Virus record (IMG/VR): IMGVR_UViG_3300050821_005090 | Span: 1 to 46,891 of that record | DNA length: 46,891 nt | Source: a virus | Strand: one strand, 5' to 3' | Shown here: positions 5,461 through 32,832 of the stretch, piece by piece | Position numbering within the stretch: the stretch's first letter is position 1 | Layout of the letters: each line of letters opens with the position of its first letter | Translations under genes and position numbers: made by a program | Notes under the pieces: generated by a model | Told to the model about the DNA's origin: nothing | Database searches by the model: none | What the model saw: the letters and a program-made list of their open reading frames with translations, nothing else

Positions 5461-6183
5461 TTACGCCGCCTTTAGTAGTTCAACGAGCTTATCAGCCATC
5501 CGAACGTATGCCGACCGCGCCGCCCGCGCCGCCGACTCCGCCGCCCGCGCCGCCGACCACGTCGACCGCGCCGCCGACCCCGCCGACTCCGCCGCCCGCG
5601 CCGCCGACCACGTCGACCGCGCCGCCGACTCCGCCGCCCGCGCCGCCGACCACGCCGCCGACCCCGCCGACCACGTCGACCGCGCCGCCGACCACGCCGC
5701 CGACTCCGCCGCCCGCGCCGCCGACCACGCCGCCGACCGCGCCGCCGACTCCGCCGACTGATCTACAGCCAAGCCTTTCGTCAACGGCAGTAGTACGTCA
5801 GCGCATTGCTTGATAGCTACAGACACCAATGGGTGATCGCGGCCCGCTAATTCTTCCGTCAACAGCCAATGCAAAAACTTCCAGTGAACGGTCGATAAAT
5901 CTGCACCTGGTTTGATTGCGGCGAGAAACCGCGCAGGGAACGTTTTGGCCGCACCATTCGACTGGCCTTCAAATAGCGTATCTTCTAATCGCGCCAACGC
6001 TAGCGGGATTCCTAGTTCAGTTTCATAAGCCGAATGGCTAGAAGAGTGAATGGTGCATCCCACGGCGCAGCCTTTACCTTCTTCCCAGTACTTGCCGTGA
6101 ACGATTTCATCCGCTTTGGCATGCGCGCGGACGCGGGCCAAGTACTTGCGCTTGATTTTCGGATCGTTATGGAATGCGAGCAT
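5461..6183 (-). CDS. Phage protein with SAAR/SAAW low-complexity repeats, 240 aa
   Basis: The N-terminal 150 residues begin MLAFHNDPKIKRKYLARVRAH and contain GKGCAVGCTIHSSSHSAYE. I recognise this arrangement from uncharacterised phage proteins that combine a conserved N-terminal domain with alanine/serine/arginine repeats. Residues about 143-230 are repeats of Ser-Ala-Ala-Arg, Ser-Ala-Ala-Trp and Ala-Glu-Ser-Ala units encoded by a GC-rich tandem array (5510-5760). The final helix (MADKLVELLKAA) is normal. A GGAAC ribosome site precedes the start. The function is unknown. Confidence 0.8.
   Translation of the reverse strand: MLAFHNDPKIKRKYLARVRAHAKADEIVHGKYWEEGKGCAVGCTIHSSSHSAYETELGIPLALARLEDTLFEGQSNGAAKTFPARFLAAIKPGADLSTVHWKFLHWLLTEELAGRDHPLVSVAIKQCADVLLPLTKGLAVDQSAESAARSAAWSAARAAESAAWSAARSTWSAGSAAWSAARAAESAARSTWSAARAAESAGSAARSTWSAARAAESAARAARSAYVRMADKLVELLKAA
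5505..5760. repeat. GC-rich tandem repeat array within coding sequence
   Basis: About 250 bases consist of permuted GCCGCC, GAC, CGC and CACGTC units with periods in multiples of 3, so unit gain or loss would keep the 240-residue frame. All three plus-strand frames stay open through it as an artefact of composition. Confidence 0.9.
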
Positions 6184-8827: not shown

Positions 8828-8962
8828 GTTTGTTGCAGCGCAAGAGAGTTTGTTGCATCGCGGCATTGATGACGGCCGCCGATTTTTAGAAATGAGGGAA
8901 GGCCCCGGGGGAGCCCCTTTCGAGGAGGTAGGCTTCTGGCGGCGAGCGGCCGCTTTGTTGCA
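8828..8962. repeat. Three TTTGTTGCA iterons
   Basis: Copies start at 8829, 8849 and 8954. The first two are exactly 20 bp apart and the third 105 bp further on, both near whole numbers of helical turns. They may be binding sites for a replication or regulatory protein. Confidence 0.6.
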
Positions 8963-9045
8963 AGCGCCACCAGCAAATAGTTAAGACGTACAGAGACAAT
9001 CTAAGACGCTACCGCTGCCCCCTCTTTTCCGGTACCTTGATACCT

Positions 9046-9417
9046 ATGGCAAACGAAGACGACGCCGATATATCTGAATTAGCCAGAAGCCACGCGCCCC
9101 GGGCGATCGAGTTGCTGGCTGATGCGATGGAGGTGGCCGAGACGGACAAGGATCGCATTCGCGCAGCCGAAGCGATCCTGGACCGGGGGTATGGGAAGCC
9201 TTCTCAGGCGATCATCGCGATTCCCGCGACCCGCCGCCAGGCCCTCGCCGCCGCGGCGTTCAACGATGATCAGTTGGTGGCCATCATCGAGCGCAAGGCG
9301 CTGCCTAAGTTGGCCCCCTCGCAGCCGATGGTCACGATTGGCGCCAAGCCTCGCGGCTTCTATGCCTCGCACGGCCCCGCCGAGTCGTTTCCTGATTTAG
9401 ATCCGCTGCTCAAGTGA
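9046..9417 (+). CDS. terS: Terminase small subunit
   Basis: The 123-residue protein begins MANEDDADISELARSHAPRA and contains a helical segment ending in AAEAILDRGYGKPSQAI, a pattern I recognise in phage small terminase subunits. Its gene ends in a GTGA overlap with the large subunit gene. It would recognise the packaging site and assemble on DNA. No ribosome site precedes either ATG 9046 or the in-frame TTG 9037, so initiation is unusual. The protein ends SFPDLDPLLK, the shared D-P-L-L tail. Confidence 0.75.
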   Translation: MANEDDADISELARSHAPRAIELLADAMEVAETDKDRIRAAEAILDRGYGKPSQAIIAIPATRRQALAAAAFNDDQLVAIIERKALPKLAPSQPMVTIGAKPRGFYASHGPAESFPDLDPLLK

Positions 9418-10490
9418 ACCAAACCCTCTCGCCCGAGTTTGCGGCACAGGAATATCTAAGACGAACCCGCGCCCGCGCATCCCTGCTAGAGTATTCCCAA
9501 GCGATTGATATTCCAGGCGTGCCGTTGCTCGACACCCCGGATGAAGCCGAAGATATCGAGATTGGCGAAACCATCATCGAGGGCGCGGGCAGGCTCAAGA
9601 ATCGGTTTGAGGAAACACCGACCGTTTACGAGCCGGTCGAGCTGCGTCTGGCCGTGCACCACGCCTTGATGATGCAGAAGATTCAAAAGTGCATCGAGAC
9701 CAAGCGCGGCCGGCAAATTATTTTGGCGCCCCCCGGCTCGGCCAAGTCGACCTATGTCAGTGTCGTCGGCTCCAGTTGGGCGATGGGGCGCAAAAAGAAC
9801 ACGCAAGTCATTCTCGGCTCCTATGCGACCGGCATTGCCGCCAAGCAATCGCGCAAAGTCAGGGCCATCGTGCGCGATCCGCGCTGGAGCGCCATTTGGC
9901 CTTCTCGTCCGACGCTTGCCGATGATCAACGCGCGATCGATGATTGGTCCTTGACCAATGGCTCCTCGATGATGGCGGCAGGGATGCTCGCCGGCATCAC
10001 CGGTAATCGATGCGATCTGTTGCTACTCGATGATCCGGTGGCGAATCGCGAGCAAGCGGACTCCGCCACCATCCGCGAGAAGATCTATTCAGAATACATC
10101 GATACTGCGATGACGCGCGCGAAGCCGTGGATGTCTGTGGTACTGGTAATGACTCGTTGGCACGAAGAGGACTTGGTCGGCCTGATTCTCCCCGAGAACT
10201 ACGAAGGCGAGTCGGGCCTGATCCACTGCCGCGACGGCCAGTATTGGGACGTACTGTGTATTCCGGCCGAGTGCGAGCGCGAAGATGACGTGCTTAATCG
10301 TAAGATCGGAGAGTTTCTCTGGCCTGAGTTCTGGCCGCGCGAGCATTGGTCAGTGTGGCGGGACAACCCGCGTGCCGCGCGCACCTGGGCCGCGCTCTTT
10401 CAACAGCGCCCCGCGCCCTATGGGGGTATCCATTTCAATCGCGAGATGTTTCAGTACTACAATGCCGATTTGCCCCGGAGCGATGCATGA
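9414..10490 (+). CDS. terL: Terminase large subunit, ATPase half (split gene)
   Basis: The 358-residue product carries the packaging ATPase: Walker A APPGSAKST at 105-113, Walker B DLLLLDDPV at 201-209, and the TRWHEEDL motif at about 247. It ends after FNREMFQYYNADLP, exactly where phage TerL proteins normally pass from ATPase to nuclease domain. The nuclease is encoded separately at 10744-11391. The GTG start overlaps the terS stop (GTGA), and its own stop overlaps the start of the inserted 86-residue gene (ATGA). The split is between domains and both halves look intact, so function as two interacting polypeptides is plausible. Confidence 0.9.
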   Translation: MNQTLSPEFAAQEYLRRTRARASLLEYSQAIDIPGVPLLDTPDEAEDIEIGETIIEGAGRLKNRFEETPTVYEPVELRLAVHHALMMQKIQKCIETKRGRQIILAPPGSAKSTYVSVVGSSWAMGRKKNTQVILGSYATGIAAKQSRKVRAIVRDPRWSAIWPSRPTLADDQRAIDDWSLTNGSSMMAAGMLAGITGNRCDLLLLDDPVANREQADSATIREKIYSEYIDTAMTRAKPWMSVVLVMTRWHEEDLVGLILPENYEGESGLIHCRDGQYWDVLCIPAECEREDDVLNRKIGEFLWPEFWPREHWSVWRDNPRAARTWAALFQQRPAPYGGIHFNREMFQYYNADLPRSDA

Positions 10491-10747
10491 TCACTACTAA
10501 AAGCTACGCTTACAAAGTGCTACTATTCATGGATCTATTTGTCTGCGCCTTGGTGTTTCGCGATCCTGACGTGACGATATCTTCGGAAGTCGGCTTGGCG
10601 ATGCAGCGCGCGATACCGCCGTGGTGGGCGACTTTCACCAATTCGTTTCTTAATCTGATCAGAAAAGGCCATTGCCAACTGGCGATCGGCGAGGACATCG
10701 AGCGGGCGCAAGTTGCGATCAAATACCTGCAGACGAAACAAGTGTGA
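10487..10747 (+). CDS. Small phage protein inserted between TerL halves, 86 aa
   Basis: The protein has a hydrophobic N-terminal segment (YKVLLFMDLFVCALVF), then DPDVTISSEVG, a central PPWWATFTNSF and KGHCQLAIGEDIERAQ. This D-E/V-TISS...HC arrangement recalls small uncharacterised phage proteins usually found elsewhere in late regions. Both ends are coupled: ATGA with the ATPase gene and GTGA with the nuclease gene. It contains no nuclease, intein or intron motif, so it looks like an ordinary gene sitting inside the terminase. Confidence 0.75.
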   Translation: MITTKSYAYKVLLFMDLFVCALVFRDPDVTISSEVGLAMQRAIPPWWATFTNSFLNLIRKGHCQLAIGEDIERAQVAIKYLQTKQV

Positions 10748-11391
10748 GCTACGCGTATCTGCTGCCATATGAGGATAAAGCACTACCGCTCTCCTTGCGC
10801 ATGTACGGGGCCTCGGACTACGCGACGATGGAGATCCAGCACGGCAAGCGTGAACCGGATTTCACCGAGCACGGGGTTTGGGGCGTCGATCGGGTGGGGG
10901 ATCTGTGGTTCACCGACTGGTTTTTTAAGCAGTGCGAAACGGATGTCGGCATTGCGCAGTTCATTCGCTTGGTGGGGCTCTACAAACCGGTTCGATGGGC
11001 GAATGAAGGCGGTCTGATCGATAAGGCGATCGGCCCTGCGATTCGCAGCGCCATGCAGCATGCGCAAAAGTTCACCGCAATCGAGATGCTGCCTTCGCTC
11101 GATGACAAATCGATCAAGCTGCAGGCGTTCCATGCGCGGGCGACCGCTCGAACGGTTCACTTTCCGTTGCGGCGTGCCTGGACCGATCATGTGGTTGATC
11201 AACTGTGCAAGTTCCCCGGGGGCAAGCACGATGATGCCTGCGATGTGTGCGGGCTCGCGGGGCGGTTGGTTGATAAAATGATGGACGCGCGTATAGTATC
11301 GGCGGAAGCTAAGCCCTTACTCATCCCGTTCACGGAAAAATGGATCGAGTATAACGATCGCGAGACGAAGCCGAAGGTTCGCTATTTCTAG
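10744..11391 (+). CDS. terL: Terminase large subunit, nuclease half (split gene)
   Basis: The 215-residue product carries the RNase H-like nuclease domain of TerL: D25 in YGASDY, the HGVWGVD strand at 43-49, ANEGG at 86-90, and the final KHDDACD at 161-167. It starts with GTG overlapping the preceding stop, and residues 1-19 appear to be the former interdomain linker. Together with the ATPase half it gives about 573 residues, a normal TerL total. It should cut the concatemer into genome lengths. Confidence 0.88.
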   Translation: MSYAYLLPYEDKALPLSLRMYGASDYATMEIQHGKREPDFTEHGVWGVDRVGDLWFTDWFFKQCETDVGIAQFIRLVGLYKPVRWANEGGLIDKAIGPAIRSAMQHAQKFTAIEMLPSLDDKSIKLQAFHARATARTVHFPLRRAWTDHVVDQLCKFPGGKHDDACDVCGLAGRLVDKMMDARIVSAEAKPLLIPFTEKWIEYNDRETKPKVRYF

Positions 11392-11399
11392 GAGGTACG

Positions 11400-11582
11400 G
11401 TGGCGCAAGTCAACTCAGAACCCGGCAAGAATCAGATCTTCGCCAACGTCACAGTATCTTCAGCGGTGGCTGAAGTGGGCACCACGGACACCAAGGTCAA
11501 AGCAGCCGCTATCATCGTCCCTTACAGTCAAATCGAACCAGGCACGACGAACGATCCTGCCTTGAAGCCCAAAAGGAGTTAG
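11400..11582 (+). CDS. Tandem duplicated small protein, copy 1, 60 aa
   Basis: A GTG start sits behind a GGAGG ribosome site. It shares MAQVNSEPGKNQ, a central IVPY and the C-terminal PKRS with the next gene, so the two are tandem duplicates. No domain is recognised; possibly a minor head protein because of its place between terminase and portal. Confidence 0.7.
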   Translation: MAQVNSEPGKNQIFANVTVSSAVAEVGTTDTKVKAAAIIVPYSQIEPGTTNDPALKPKRS

Positions 11583-11583
11583 C

Positions 11584-11766
11584 ATGGCACAAGTCAATTC
11601 GGAGCCTGGCAAGAATCAGACTTCTGCCAATGTCGCGGTGCCCCCTGATGTCCCTGAATACGGGGCGTCCGCTTCCCGCGCATCAGCCACGGCTACCATC
11701 GTGCCGTATATGCAGCATGAACCAGGCACGACCAGTGATATCGTGCTCAGACCGAAGAGGAGTTAA
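11584..11766 (+). CDS. Tandem duplicated small protein, copy 2, 60 aa
   Basis: It is the same length as the gene before it and shares its N- and C-termini, with a diverged middle. Its ribosome site AGGAG is formed by the last codons of copy 1. The function is unknown. Confidence 0.7.
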   Translation: MAQVNSEPGKNQTSANVAVPPDVPEYGASASRASATATIVPYMQHEPGTTSDIVLRPKRS

Positions 11767-11769
11767 GAC

Positions 11770-11985
11770 ATGGCCGCACAAACAGGACTCGGCAGCTCCC
11801 CAGGAGTTCCCACCAATCTGCCCACGGTGACGGCGCAGCTCACGACGCAGACCAATACGTCGGTGCTGGGGGCCACGGGGCTTAATTCCGTGGTTCAGGC
11901 CGAACAGGCGCTTGCTGTCGCCGGTCCCAATTACTATTCGCCTGGGCAGCAAAACATCGGCGCTCCTGCAGGCGGGGGGCCGTAA
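11770..11985 (+). CDS. Small Ser/Thr/Gly-rich protein, 71 aa
   Basis: The segment SSPGVPTNLPTV recurs as SSPGVPNVLPTV in the next gene, so they appear to be a second duplicated pair. The end is glycine-rich (APAGGGP). AGGAG precedes the ATG. The function is unknown; minor virion component possible. Confidence 0.65.
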   Translation: MAAQTGLGSSPGVPTNLPTVTAQLTTQTNTSVLGATGLNSVVQAEQALAVAGPNYYSPGQQNIGAPAGGGP

Positions 11986-11988
11986 TTT

Positions 11989-12225
11989 GTGGCTCAAAGT
12001 TCGCCTGGCGTGCCGAATGTGCTACCGACGGTGGCGGCTTCATCGGCTACCCCCATCCTCACCGGCCCTCCGCTGACGGTCGGCGTTACGACCAACAGCA
12101 ACGTCTTTGCGACAGGCCAGACGAATGTATGGCCCGCGGTGCTGACTGAACGGGGGGTTGTCGTGACGCCGTTCAAGTACTCCACTCCGATTGTGTTACC
12201 CAACCAAGCAGGGCTCTTCCCATGA
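11989..12225 (+). CDS. Small Ser/Thr-rich protein, 78 aa
   Basis: It uses a GTG start 3 bases after the previous stop and shares the SSPGVP..LPTV N-terminus with it. The C-terminal half (FKYSTPIVLPNQAGLFP) is beta-prone. The stop overlaps the next start by ATGA. The function is unknown. Confidence 0.62.
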   Translation: MAQSSPGVPNVLPTVAASSATPILTGPPLTVGVTTNSNVFATGQTNVWPAVLTERGVVVTPFKYSTPIVLPNQAGLFP

Positions 12226-14681: not shown

Positions 14682-15731
14682 ATGGCCGAAAAAACAGCAA
14701 TGGAAGAAATGGACGAAGCACTTGGCGATGTCGTCGAAGAGCCGGCGTCAGAATTAGAAACGCCTGAAGGCGAAGAGGCGCCAGAGGAAACGTCTGAAGA
14801 AACACCGGAAGGGGAGGAGACGCCTGAAGAGGAAGAAGGCGAAGAGGAACGCGGTCCTAATGGCGAGCGCGAACGCAATCCGGACGGTACGTGGAAAGCA
14901 GCGCCGAAGCTCGATGAGAAAGGCAAGCCGATTGCGGAGCCTAAAAAGCCGGACCCACTCAATGATCCGATTCCGAAGGAGCTGAAGAAAGACACCCAGG
15001 AGCGCATCCGCACGCTGATCGATACCGCCAAGACGGTGACGGCCGAGCGCGATGAGTTGAAAACCAATTTTGACTTCATGGTGAACGGCATTCAAGCCAC
15101 GGGCGCAACGCCTGCGCAGTATGGCGAGACGCTCTCATGGCTCGCGCTTTTCAACAGTGGCGACCCGAAGCAGCAGGAGAAAGCCCTTGAGCTGGTTGAA
15201 AACGTTGCCGAACGACTCGCTACCCTTCTCGGAAAAGAACGCGCTATTGGCGATCCGTTGGGGGCTCATGCGGATCTCAAAGAGGCGGTGCGAACTGGAA
15301 AGCTCACTCCAGAGTTTGCAAAAGAAATTGCACGAACTCGTAACGGCCAGCAATTCCGCACGGAACTCACCACGAGCGCGACTCAGGAGCAGCAGCGCCA
15401 GCAGCAAGCGCAGCGTGAAGAGGCGGATGGGCGCAAAGCGCTTACCGAGCTAGAACAAACGCTGATCGCAAGTGATCCTGATTACGCGCGCAAGAAGGCA
15501 ATTCTGGTTCCGGCGTTGAAGCCTTTGATGTTGACGGTCCCGTGGCCGCAGCGGAAGGATAAATTCTTGGAGGCATATAAAAACTTGAAGCTCCCGAAAG
15601 CCGCGCCCAAGAAAGAGATACCGGCGAACCAGCCGCTACGGGCGGGCAAGCAGCCGGCCGGGGGGCAGACTCGGGCGCCTGCGAATGCGTTGGAAGCGAT
15701 GAATGCAGCCCTCTCAGGAATGAACAAATGA
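14682..15731 (+). CDS. Scaffolding protein
   Basis: The 349-residue protein is highly charged. Residues 1-70 are mostly Glu with Pro/Thr; NPDGTWK and a Lys-rich linker follow. A long helical stretch contains DTQERIRTLIDTAKTVTAE and, at about 235-255, a Gln-rich TQEQQRQQQAQ. This composition, the portal-scaffold-capsid order and the size fit a podovirus scaffold that guides procapsid assembly. Its stop overlaps the first glycosyltransferase start (ATGA). Confidence 0.8.
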   Translation: MAEKTAMEEMDEALGDVVEEPASELETPEGEEAPEETSEETPEGEETPEEEEGEEERGPNGERERNPDGTWKAAPKLDEKGKPIAEPKKPDPLNDPIPKELKKDTQERIRTLIDTAKTVTAERDELKTNFDFMVNGIQATGATPAQYGETLSWLALFNSGDPKQQEKALELVENVAERLATLLGKERAIGDPLGAHADLKEAVRTGKLTPEFAKEIARTRNGQQFRTELTTSATQEQQRQQQAQREEADGRKALTELEQTLIASDPDYARKKAILVPALKPLMLTVPWPQRKDKFLEAYKNLKLPKAAPKKEIPANQPLRAGKQPAGGQTRAPANALEAMNAALSGMNK

Positions 15732-16444
15732 AAAACTACAGCAAGGTTTTAATTGCAACGCCAATCAGGGGCAACACCACCATCACGCTCTACACGGCCG
15801 GCATGCTGGCCTCCACCGGTTTGCACGGCGGCTGGCTCCCCTTGGCAGGGCAGTCGGATATTTACGTCGCGCGCAACGTCTTGGCGAATGAATTTTTGCG
15901 CCGTACCGAATACGATACGATGATCTGTATCGACAGCGATATGGGGTTTTCGCGCACCGATCTGCAAAACCTGATCGATACGGAGGAACCTTTCGTCAGC
16001 GGGTTGTATACGGATAAGTGCCAGCCGCCGATGCCGTTCTGTCGCGATAATGCCGGCATGCAGGTGCCGCTGGAGGACATCCCGCGGCAGGGGATGCTCA
16101 AGGCGCGGTTTGTTCCGGGCGGCTTTTTGAAGATCGATCGCACGGTGCTACAAACGCTGATTGACAAAAAGTTGGTGGCTTCTTATGGAAAAGGTACTTT
16201 TTATCATTTCTTTTTTGGTCGCATTGCGCTCGATAATCTACTCTCAGAGGACTACTCCTTTTCAGATTTAGTTTATAGCGCCGGCATTCAGCCGTGGATC
16301 AATTGCGGTATTCGCTTGAGCCACGATGGCCGCACGTTGGACCCGCAACCGCCGCAGCCTAAGACAGATACCATAACGACGGAAACAATTGCGTTGCCGC
16401 CGCCTGCGAGTTTGAACGGAGCGAGCGCGCATGCAGACGCTTGA
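15728..16444 (+). CDS. GT-A fold glycosyltransferase 1, 238 aa
   Basis: It begins VLIATPIRG, followed by SDIYVARNVLANEFL and the metal-binding CIDSDMGF (DSD at 69-71), then FVSGLYTDK. These are marks of a compact GT-A glycosyltransferase related to ANP1-like enzymes found in phages. The last 30 residues are a Pro/Thr tail. It starts within the scaffold stop and is overlapped at its end by the HNH gene. Likely role: adding a sugar to a virion or other phage product; the acceptor cannot be read. Confidence 0.78.
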   Translation: MKNYSKVLIATPIRGNTTITLYTAGMLASTGLHGGWLPLAGQSDIYVARNVLANEFLRRTEYDTMICIDSDMGFSRTDLQNLIDTEEPFVSGLYTDKCQPPMPFCRDNAGMQVPLEDIPRQGMLKARFVPGGFLKIDRTVLQTLIDKKLVASYGKGTFYHFFFGRIALDNLLSEDYSFSDLVYSAGIQPWINCGIRLSHDGRTLDPQPPQPKTDTITTETIALPPPASLNGASAHADA

Positions 16445-16916
16445 AGAAAAACGCGCACGTAATCGTGCATACAACCGCAAACGTTACGCAGCGAATCCGG
16501 CAAAAGTGCTTGCTAGTAATCGTAAATGGGCCGTAGCTAACCCAGAAAATATGCGCGCGAACGGTCGCAGATATTATGCAGCAAACAAAGAAAAGGAGCG
16601 CGATAGGAAGCACGAGGCTTATGCGGCAAACCCAAAGAAGTATCTTGCACGCGCTAAAAAATGGCATGCAGCAAACTTAGATAGATCACGTGCGAAGCGT
16701 CGCAAGCGTCAAGGGTTGCCCCTTCCGACACGGCCGATGCCTGAATTGTGCGAGATGAATTGCGGACGTAAGGCGGTACATCTTGACCACTGCCATATTA
16801 CGGGTGTTTTTCGCGGCTGGCTTTGTTACGGATGTAATTTAGGCTTGGGGGCGCTTGGTGATACAGCGGAAAGTTTGCGTAATGGCCTTGATTACTTAGC
16901 TCGGGTTGGGGTATGA
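16431..16916 (+). CDS. Endonuclease VII-like HNH nuclease
   Basis: The N-terminal 90 residues repeat a basic YAANPxK/RKWxAANP motif typical of DNA-binding extensions. The C-terminal domain has C107 and C111, HLDHCHITG (H117, D119, H120, H122), RGWLCYGCN (C132, C135, N136) and LGDTAESL, the recombination endonuclease VII signature. It overlaps the preceding glycosyltransferase by 14 bases and the next by ATGA. It could resolve branched DNA before packaging, or be a mobile HNH gene that entered the glycosyltransferase pair. Lower GC than its neighbours favours the latter. Confidence 0.85.
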   Translation: MQTLEEKRARNRAYNRKRYAANPAKVLASNRKWAVANPENMRANGRRYYAANKEKERDRKHEAYAANPKKYLARAKKWHAANLDRSRAKRRKRQGLPLPTRPMPELCEMNCGRKAVHLDHCHITGVFRGWLCYGCNLGLGALGDTAESLRNGLDYLARVGV

Positions 16917-17785
16917 AAAATCTGTCAATTTGTATCCCGACATACGGCAGAGACCCATGGCTGGCCTGGACGCTAGAACGAACGGCTGCCGATTTTCCTG
17001 ATGCGAAGCTCATAGTATCTGATAACGGTAGAAGTGAGATCACATTGCCACCTGGAACTCGGTACATTCGTCAAGCAGGTAACGTAGCGCAGGGGGGCAT
17101 CGGCCCCTTCCCCAATATGCGTGCTGCGCTCCTGGCGTCTCACACTAAGTATTGCATGTACTTGGGCGATGATGACTATCTGTTGCCTGGCGAAGTAGCC
17201 AAGGGCGTGGACTTTCTCGACCATCACCCGGACGTACTCGCTTACTTTGCCCCGTGCCAGCTCTATGATGAAGTCGAGCAGAAACCCGCATGGGATGCGT
17301 TCTACGTAGCAGAAGATGAAACCTTCACGCGGGCCGACACGCTTTGGAATTTTGTGATGCATAAGCACGTCTGGCCCGAGCATGCGATTTATCGCCGGGA
17401 TCGGCTCGATGAAATCATGCAGCCGCGCGTTAATGCCTATTGGTGCTTCGTGGATCTGGCGAATGCGGCGCTGCGCGGTCCTGTTCATTTTGCGAAGACG
17501 CCTTACTATCGCAATCTGACCCAGCACCCCATCGGCCCGCGCGTTAAGTTAGGCGATCAGCAGTGTTTGACGGATTTTGATGCGTATCGCGCAGGGCTTG
17601 AAGTGTTAGCACATGATCTCTTCCCGCAAGCGGGCACCGACTTGGATTTGAAGAAAAATTTGAACGAGATGATCCGGCAATTCATCTGGTCGCGCTATGA
17701 AGTGGCTTCACGCATCCTGACTGCGCAGGGTAGACTGCCTGAAGCGGATGTGCTAAAGAAGCGCATGGCGATGACCGGCTACTAG
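16913..17785 (+). CDS. Family 2 glycosyltransferase, 290 aa
   Basis: Residues 1-120 are a GT2 catalytic core: LSICIPTYGR at 4-13, LIVSDNGR at 33-40 and LGDDDYLLPGE with GDDD at 85-88. The rest is a longer C-terminal domain with many aromatic residues. Its start overlaps the HNH stop. With the other glycosyltransferase it forms a likely two-enzyme glycan module next to the capsid genes. Confidence 0.85.
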   Translation: MKNLSICIPTYGRDPWLAWTLERTAADFPDAKLIVSDNGRSEITLPPGTRYIRQAGNVAQGGIGPFPNMRAALLASHTKYCMYLGDDDYLLPGEVAKGVDFLDHHPDVLAYFAPCQLYDEVEQKPAWDAFYVAEDETFTRADTLWNFVMHKHVWPEHAIYRRDRLDEIMQPRVNAYWCFVDLANAALRGPVHFAKTPYYRNLTQHPIGPRVKLGDQQCLTDFDAYRAGLEVLAHDLFPQAGTDLDLKKNLNEMIRQFIWSRYEVASRILTAQGRLPEADVLKKRMAMTGY

Positions 17786-30618: not shown

Positions 30619-32832
30619 ATGGCGGCTGTTGTCATGCCCGATGGCCAAACAGTAGAAATGCCAGATCAGCTCGATTCGGCAACGGGTGCGCGTCTGCGGG
30701 CATTTCATGATTCGCAAGTGACGCAAAACCCTGGCGTTGGCGATATCGTGAAAGGCGTAGGGGATGCCGCGCTTTCAGGGGCCGCGAAAGTCTCTACTGG
30801 TATCGTTGGCGGTGCCGTAGGTTTTATAAACCGCATTATCGCAGCCGCCAATAACGGCGATCCTGAAGGCGCCGCGCAAGCCGCAAAAGATTACGTCAAC
30901 GCAAAATTCGGGCACGACACCACAACCCCGGTAGGTAAAGCGATTGGGGGCGCCGTCTCTGGTGCGCTAGCCCCCATCGGTCAATCCGCGCAAGCGGATG
31001 CCAATCTGCTTGCGCAAGGCGGCGAGAAAATAGGTATTCCACAGGGAGAGACACGCGGTGCGTTGAACGAAATGGGAGAGCTTGCGAATGTGGTGCCGCT
31101 AGCCGCTGGAGTCAAAGCAGGGGCGACTGCATCGAGGGGGGCAGCAGAATTGGCGGCGCAGAATGCGCCGGCTGCTGTCACCAAATACGGCATGCGTACA
31201 TTAACGAGCCACCCTATAGCAGCGGGTGCTGCAGGGCCATCAGGAGCACAAGCGGTAGCGCTACATAATCAACCCCTCGGCAATACGGTGTTGGGTGCGG
31301 AAGCAGGTGTTCCTCACGGCCAAGCGCTCGTACCGGGGGAGAATGGCAGCCTCGCGCAAGCGCGTGCCGCCCCGGGTTCTGTTTACGATCGTTTGCAAGC
31401 CTCTTTACCCACGGCACCTTTAAGCGCTGACGCCACGCATCTAATGCGAAGTGCGGGCACGACGGAGAACGTTCTCACGGCTCCTTCTGAAGCCACGCAA
31501 GCCACGATCGATGCTCAAAAAGCCCGGCTTCTCCAAGGACCGCTCACAGGCCCTCAAGTGGTGCAGACTTCCCGTGCGCTGCGACAAGAAGGCGGCGCGC
31601 GATTGGGTTCCGATGATGTGGAGCAACAGAATCTCGGGGGCGCGCAGCTTCAAATGGCTCGCGCCTTGGAGCAGCACGTAGCGGATACGCTTCAACCAAA
31701 CGCTCCTGTTTCGTTGGAGCAGTTTCAGGCTGCACGTACCGCGCTTGCTAAAAACTATGCGGTTCAAGGCGCGGTGAAAGGCGGCAACGTCGATATGCAA
31801 GCGATTGCCCGCATGCAGTTGCGCGATCCTGATTTGCTCACCGGGCCGATGAAAGACATTGCGGATTTTGCGAACCAGCACCCGGCCGTGACTTCATTGA
31901 CCAATCGCATCGAAGTGCCGCCTAGTTTTGCGAATGATTTGGGTAAAGCGATCGGAACGGGCAACCATCAAGGGGTGTTAGATCGGCTGTTTGGCGCTTC
32001 CGGTATTCAAGCCGGGGCGCGTCGAGTCTTAACGGGTAGTCGGGGGGCAGCAACTGAGGCCGCACAGCAAACACCCGTCAGCGGCCTTGGGGGCGAGTTC
32101 GGTCCTCTTGCACCGCGTCAACCACCGCCTTTGACACTTGAACCCGCTCCGGGGCAAGCGTTTACCCCTCACCAACCGCAAGCGGCGACGGCTGAGCCGC
32201 AACAGGACTTCTTCGGTACGGGTGCGAACAATTTCACGGCAAGCCCTCCAACGGCCCCCGCGCCTGCCGCTGCTCAAGCCCCTGGGCAGATCCCTCTGGC
32301 AGACGTGCTATCGCACGGGGTCGAACAGCCCCCGCCAGCGGGGCTCTCCTTGGGTTCTAGCGAGCCTCGAACTTATGGCGGGGTGCCGTTTCGACCCAAT
32401 ACGAGCTTTATGAGCGGCCCCCTGTCCTTGGCGGATGACTTGGCGGGGCCGGCCGCACAAAGCACGCAAAGCAACAAGGATGTGGCGCCCGTGATGAGTC
32501 AAGGCGTGCCGGAAGATATCATGGCACGGGCCAATAACGCTTCCGGCGCCGGGGGCAAACGCAACCCGGCAAGTATCGAAGGGGTCCACGCACGCGATGA
32601 AGGGCTCGCTCAAGGCGTGCAGCCGGTGTCTTTTGGCGCAGATGATATGGAACATCCGATGTCGCCGCATGATATCGAACGGCGCGACTTGAACCCCGCA
32701 CCCGATTCGATTTTTATCAACAAGAAGGATGGCAGCATCATCAACAGCGGCGGCATGGCTCCCCGCTTAGCGCAAGGGTTGCTCGCGCGCTGGAAGGCGT
32801 TGCACGGGCCGCTCGGGAGCGCATACGAATGA
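30619..32832 (+). CDS. Large internal virion protein, 737 aa
   Basis: It begins VVMPDGQTVEMPD, as do large ejected proteins of related podoviruses, followed by Gly/Ala-rich amphipathic stretches (VGDAALSGAAKVSTGIVGGAVGF and similar) that may form the ejection conduit through the membrane. A helical region spans about 230-470 and a Pro/Gln-rich part follows. The C-terminal helix overlaps the fibre gene by ATGA. No lytic domain is seen. Confidence 0.72.
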   Translation: MAAVVMPDGQTVEMPDQLDSATGARLRAFHDSQVTQNPGVGDIVKGVGDAALSGAAKVSTGIVGGAVGFINRIIAAANNGDPEGAAQAAKDYVNAKFGHDTTTPVGKAIGGAVSGALAPIGQSAQADANLLAQGGEKIGIPQGETRGALNEMGELANVVPLAAGVKAGATASRGAAELAAQNAPAAVTKYGMRTLTSHPIAAGAAGPSGAQAVALHNQPLGNTVLGAEAGVPHGQALVPGENGSLAQARAAPGSVYDRLQASLPTAPLSADATHLMRSAGTTENVLTAPSEATQATIDAQKARLLQGPLTGPQVVQTSRALRQEGGARLGSDDVEQQNLGGAQLQMARALEQHVADTLQPNAPVSLEQFQAARTALAKNYAVQGAVKGGNVDMQAIARMQLRDPDLLTGPMKDIADFANQHPAVTSLTNRIEVPPSFANDLGKAIGTGNHQGVLDRLFGASGIQAGARRVLTGSRGAATEAAQQTPVSGLGGEFGPLAPRQPPPLTLEPAPGQAFTPHQPQAATAEPQQDFFGTGANNFTASPPTAPAPAAAQAPGQIPLADVLSHGVEQPPPAGLSLGSSEPRTYGGVPFRPNTSFMSGPLSLADDLAGPAAQSTQSNKDVAPVMSQGVPEDIMARANNASGAGGKRNPASIEGVHARDEGLAQGVQPVSFGADDMEHPMSPHDIERRDLNPAPDSIFINKKDGSIINSGGMAPRLAQGLLARWKALHGPLGSAYE

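Follow-up and report, generated by a model that had tools for sequence, protein, structure and literature searches.

Separate genes for the ATPase and nuclease halves of the terminase large subunit in one clade of uncultured phages

The terminase large subunit (TerL) in the stretch of viral DNA analysed here (IMG/VR record IMGVR_UViG_3300050821_005090, 46,891 nucleotides, hereafter the window) is encoded by two open reading frames (ORFs), one for the ATPase half and the other for the nuclease half (Table 1), and all of its close relatives in IMG/VR (approximately 70 distinct, 51-87% identical) were split at the same place. An old, single fission of the gene very probably gave rise to this arrangement, producing a motor of two polypeptides and leaving a junction that became an ordinary, cargo-collecting gene boundary. 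TerL is ordinarily a single protein that combines an engine half with a cutting half, and terminase is among the strongest molecular motors known. In the standard model, the ATPase drives the DNA by moving the nuclease/translocation domain that is tethered to it by a hinge.

Packaging operon and the two halves of TerL

The packaging operon is ordered as TerS (terminase small subunit), the ATPase half of TerL, an 86-codon gene, the nuclease half of TerL, small ORFs and the portal gene, and from TerS through the nuclease gene the adjacent genes share four bases each (GTGA, ATGA and GTGA, respectively). The coordinates, the reading frames and the ATGA and GTGA overlaps of the three genes given in the initial annotation all matched the sequence. 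The N-terminal SYAY of the nuclease half was conserved, with ATG as the start, in L006, L008 and L016. A promoter and terminator scan of positions 8900-11700 gave a yield no higher than about chance. On the 3' side of the nuclease gene, four small ORFs are placed in a row (11400-12225, plus strand); the first two, of 60 aa each (MAQVNSEPGKNQ...), are tandem copies with 62% identity, and the other two are distantly similar. Elsewhere in the window, an ORF of 240 aa (5461-6183, minus strand) has a long Ala/Ser/Arg-rich tail that comes from a 21-bp tandem array at 5510-5758, and a Pfam search with this ORF found nothing.

Table 1. Features of the packaging region in the window
Feature	Position	Strand	Remarks
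Probable TerS	9046..9417	+	Immediately before TerL; weak matches to PHROG terminase-small-subunit families; same place in relatives
GTGA overlap, TerS/ATPase gene	9414-9417	+	Read from the sequence
terL-a, ATPase (motor) half	9414..10490	+	358 aa; GTG start 9414, stop TGA 10488-10490
ATGA stop/start overlap, ATPase gene/small gene	10487..10490	+	Read from the sequence
Small gene (cargo), phrog_3342	10487..10747	+	86 aa; ATG 10487-10489, TGA 10745-10747
GTGA stop/start overlap, small gene/nuclease gene	10744..10747	+	Read from the sequence
terL-b, RNase H-type nuclease half	10744..11391	+	215 aa; GTG start 10744, stop ends 11391

The ATPase half matched Pfam Terminase_6N (PF03237; 3.9e-11) and the TerL family phrog_38 (1.4e-58), and the nuclease half matched phrog_38 (1.9e-10) and the terminase model TIGR01630 (2e-7, under that model's cut-off). 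No Pfam model matched the nuclease half at the cut-off, and the phages of this clade can therefore look TerL-truncated to annotators. The ATPase ORF was covered at positions 266-539 of the phrog_38 model and the nuclease ORF at positions 547-745, abutting at the linker, and a phrog_38 search of the whole record gave no TerL match outside the two halves. Since the two matches abut and were found only here, the break lies in the linker, where the initial annotation had placed it as the usual domain boundary, and no part of the enzyme is missing. A second copy was not found in the record with a profile of the ATPase halves of the clade, and in ten related records (38 kb long in one case, 45-48 kb in the other nine) phrog_38 matched the split TerL only.

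The invariant residues in the ATPase half (alignment of 16 sequences) were the P106-T113 region (Walker A), D206/D207 (Walker B/catalytic) and T247-R248-W249 (motif III), and those in the nuclease half (alignment of 15-16 sequences) were D25, E88 and D163/D164/D167; the motor and nuclease motifs are thus all kept, as the initial annotation had held. Compared with an ordinary TerL, the gene pair has the ATPase motifs and the acidic cluster of the nuclease, but not both domains in one polypeptide. Pairwise dN/dS was approximately 0.01-0.19 for the ATPase and nuclease halves alike (pairs with unsaturated dS), and approximately 0.05-0.07 for terL-a against its nearest relatives; judging from these ratios, both halves of TerL are under strong purifying selection. 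AlphaFold2 gave poor models of the two halves (mean pLDDT of 57 and 61). The best fold match of the nuclease model in the PDB was a TerL, 8dgc_E (a weak match of a low-confidence model, E = 0.14), and the fold matches of the ATPase model, which was also of low confidence, included T4 gp17 and T7 terminase; the predicted structures are weakly suggestive of TerL identity. Nothing was found with blastn against isolated phages.

The split among relatives and the cargo at the junction

Relatives were collected by IMG/VR scans with the nuclease, the ATPase and an alignment of the nuclease as queries, together with a genome scan. With duplicates included, 103 of the rows were split and 80 were fused; removal of the duplicates left approximately 70 distinct split loci. 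The halves were joined by a stop/start overlap in 36 of these loci (ATGA in 18, GTGA in 14, TTGA in two, and ATG on the last base of the stop in two), by a short gap in 13 and by an insert in 21, and no gene was present between the halves in 49 of the 70. No fused TerL was found within the clade among these relatives, and the unsplit form that the initial annotation had proposed to look for in related phages was found in the nearest outgroups (Pan3, Devosia, Rhizorhapis, Methyloversatilis and others), which have single ORFs with 42-47% identity in the ATPase. The fused relatives suggest hosts among the Pseudomonadota. In the tree of the ATPase domains reconstructed with IQ-TREE (57 split and 15 outgroup sequences), the split genes were placed on one side of a branch (SH-aLRT of 99), with one change. 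A wider tree reconstructed with FastTree had two changes, the second of which was L181, a Bradyrhizobium copy that is a distant relative and in which the nuclease is merely frame-shifted. L182 and L185, which resemble broken copies, were assigned to neither state in the wide tree; the smaller tree had L182 among its outgroups. On the evidence of the trees, the TerL split is that of one clade and very probably an old single event.

Two observations concern TerL genes of other forms. The fused TerLs of L174 (Methyloversatilis) and L183 (Veronia) have an ATPase close to that of the split clade and a nuclease that, unlike that of the clade, matches Terminase_6C; this pattern suggests exchange of the nuclease domain. 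The models of two PHROG families, 4758 and 5573, have half the length of a TerL, and their matches to the window protein suggest another cut point, inside the ATPase domain.

In the 21 loci with inserts, the inserts were mutually unrelated and reached 1 kb between the halves. They included an Endonuclease VII-type HNH gene (PF02945) in L100, L136, L142 and L148, a gene for a TylF-type methyltransferase in L131, a tRNA-His in L151, a recurrent ORF of approximately 62 aa in L011, L113, L114 and L131, and several unrelated small ORFs. A homing endonuclease was absent at the split in the window and in most relatives, the HNH genes being those of the four loci above. In the occupied/empty pair L023/L024, the nuclease starts with ATGATCCGCAC in both, after a 56-codon ORF in one case and directly on the ATPase stop in the other. 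An enlarged gap was found at the TerS/ATPase boundary in 8 of 52 cases, as compared with an insert at the TerL junction in 21 of 70 (Fisher p = 0.085, with length cut-offs that differ between the two); thus, a special insertion hot spot at the TerL junction, being weakly supported by this comparison, was not adopted. Because insertions are present at the TerS/ATPase boundary too, the TerL junction looks like a normal gene boundary. The junction of L148/L149 has the HNH gene and an apparent frameshift soon after the nuclease start. In the window, an Endonuclease VII-type HNH gene (16431-16916, plus strand; PF02945, 5.8e-15) is located in the head-gene region, overlapping an unknown gene (15728-16444) and a gene for a family 2 glycosyltransferase (16913-17785); the HNH genes at the TerL junction of the relatives belong to this family too.

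The variety of these junctions bears on the ways in which the split might be apparent only. A mistake in assembly or sequencing, or decay into a pseudogene, is a practically negligible explanation: L181 does look like a simple frameshifted copy, and L148/L149 have the apparent frameshift mentioned above, but approximately 70 distinct contigs have the split, their junctions vary, and dN/dS is low for the two halves alike, so that TerL is genuinely split, as had been claimed from the sequence of the window. One chain might also be made from the two ORFs if ribosomes were programmed to shift frame, or read through the stop, where the ORFs overlap, as many of the junctions are 4-base ATGA or GTGA overlaps with a -1 relation. 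However, the relative reading frame of the halves differed among the relatives (47/16/7 over all, and 41/3/5 among those free of inserts), which argues against conserved frameshifting, and in L008, L016 and L025 the halves were separated by stops and gaps of 35-39 nt, in addition to the loci with inserts up to 1 kb; we consider this explanation extremely unlikely. The interrupted TerL genes found in the literature search are intron-split, and a single chain restored from the halves by RNA splicing, or through a split intein, would be in line with them. This is nevertheless very improbable, as both halves start and stop on codons of their own, no Rfam match was obtained at E up to 1 in positions 9000-11800, only a tRNA was found in 17 insert-bearing loci, and in the 36 relatives with halves overlapping by 1-4 bases there is nothing to splice and intein halves would have no room. 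The view that there is no sign of an intron or intein, reached before any relative was compared, thus held.

The 86-aa protein of the window was assigned to phrog_3342 (6.7e-10 over residues 3-84; 2.1e-11 in the genome profile search). The nearest copy (64% identical, pN/pS of 0.36) was found in record G001 (L243) at 32318-32566, approximately 10 kb from TerL, and the TerL of G001 is split without an insert. Other members of the family were located directly upstream of TerS (L242, L245, L246 and L247) or at the TerL junction (L139); the row labelled L248 in the family alignment was disregarded. A search for the family in 20 records gave no match in 13 (several of the records are fragments), a tblastn search with the 86-aa protein as query yielded nothing significant, and no relative was found with this protein in the IMG/VR scan. 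As copies of the family are found far from TerL, upstream of TerS and at the junction of L139, the gene changes its place within the packaging region, unlike a fixed linker; it is exchangeable cargo, outside TerL.

The initial annotation proposed that the inserted small gene had split TerL, which does not agree with the 49 of 70 split relatives that have no gene at this place; these insert-free relatives also rule out the small gene as a universal linker. Its further suggestion that the small protein is perhaps a linker was not upheld, since the other 21 relatives carry unrelated inserts and the 64%-identical copy lies remote from TerL. A role of the 86-residue protein as a third subunit of the motor, forming a bridge from the ATPase chain to the nuclease chain, is, for the same reasons, very unlikely: the gene separates the halves and overlaps each of them, its family is conserved under purifying selection with members often beside packaging genes, and the member in L139 occupies the same junction, but most split relatives have no gene there, the others hold unrelated genes or a tRNA, and the close copy of G001 and the 13 unmatched records out of 20, several of them fragments, speak against a bridging function.

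Origin and working of the two-gene motor

In the fission that we favour, the ancestral terL of the clade would have been cut at the flexible linker that joins the ATPase domain to the nuclease domain, and both pieces would have been kept in the packaging operon as separate genes, which are probably translationally coupled because of the ATGA and GTGA overlaps. The two proteins would assemble non-covalently on the portal to form a working motor-plus-nuclease; we infer this because the halves are complete, catalytically invariant and under purifying selection, and are the only TerL found. Thereafter, the junction would have been an ordinary boundary at which the phrog_3342 gene, Endonuclease VII-type HNH genes and a tRNA come and go, leaving the halves untouched. 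Two working chains are most likely in view of this conservation, in agreement with the earlier proposal that the motor may work as two chains, and they would associate and package DNA together.

As for the first cut, insertion of an HNH homing endonuclease gene that was later lost is plausible, because some members have HNH genes at the site to this day; a gene of this type is also present elsewhere in the window. Alternatively, a short duplication of the linker with a frameshift may have made the cut, in which case each half would keep a copy of the linker; the two routes would lead to one and the same outcome. A linker-like motif was found on both sides, namely, Y[DN]PDLPR in the tail of the ATPase half and YDPDxLDALPKSLRIYG (YDPD..LDALPKSLRIYG) in the head of the nuclease half. 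The likeness of the tail and head motifs was not reached by any of 2000 shuffled heads, a zero that is not to be read as a probability because the sequences are related.

Tentatively, and with rather less than even confidence, we suggest that the ATPase and nuclease chains are held non-covalently in a stoichiometry that is not necessarily fixed at 1:1, so that translocation and headful cutting would be naturally separable functions.

Comparison with known systems

An experimental counterpart of the split TerL is T4 gp17 cut at the linker, in which the ATPase and nuclease activities stay and DNA translocation is lost (Kanamaru et al. 2004, reviewed in PMC3012670). Both domains are separate polypeptides cut at the hinge in the split gp17 and in the TerL of the clade; however, the cut of gp17 is artificial and abolishes translocation, whereas that of the clade is natural and conserved. 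As the split gp17 loses translocation, a two-chain motor would need something that T4 lacks, and a natural, conserved two-chain TerL is informative in this respect. If the clade has a two-subunit motor with separable functions, the view from the split gp17 that translocation requires a covalent hinge would be overturned. With its two parts kept as separate, conserved proteins, the clade is a natural system in which to ask whether the tether is needed, what joins the parts, and whether the cutter can come and go on its own.

Pseudanabaena phage Pan3 and Microcystis phage Mwe-JY13 are among the nearest relatives in isolated phages (43-45% identity in the ATPase and 37-39% in the nuclease). The TerL halves of Pan3 are in a single 507-aa ORF, unlike those of the clade, and the match in Mwe-JY13 is terL by annotation alone. 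Intron-interrupted terL genes have been described in ICP1 (PMC10448857), in SIOphi and phiAGATE (PMC11878797) and in Twort-like phages (PMC5618024). They share with the TerL of the clade two or more ORFs with DNA between them; however, they are rejoined by splicing, whereas in the clade most relatives have overlapping halves and no intron model was matched. A literature search, mostly outside subscription journals, turned up no account of a split TerL without splicing.

The large subunit of T4 topoisomerase is encoded by genes 39 and 60, with mobA, an HNH homing endonuclease gene, alongside (PMC2988022). In this case too, a phage enzyme gene is in separate coding regions; it differs from the TerL of the clade in that it is no packaging motor and that the T4 split still has the mobile endonuclease. 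The ribonucleotide reductase of Aeh1, in an Aeromonas phage, is encoded by 'genes-in-pieces', nrdA-a/mobE/nrdA-b (Friedrich et al. 2007, cited in PMC8351571; also described in PMC2988022). Aeh1 nrdA and the TerL of the clade have in common that an essential phage enzyme is made as two ORFs, with the break at a site of insertion, and that an HNH endonuclease gene can occupy the gap; the pieces of Aeh1 nrdA function as two polypeptides, and the equivalent would hold for the TerL of the clade, to judge from its genes. However, the enzyme is different, the split of TerL is fixed throughout the clade, the gap is mostly empty or filled with unrelated cargo, and in the window an endonuclease is absent at the split site. 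As in genes in pieces, the two ORFs of TerL jointly span an intact enzyme of which unsplit relatives are known. By analogy, the nearest known kind for the TerL of this clade would thus be, functionally, the "genes in pieces" represented by Aeh1 nrdA/mobE and T4 39/60/mobA.
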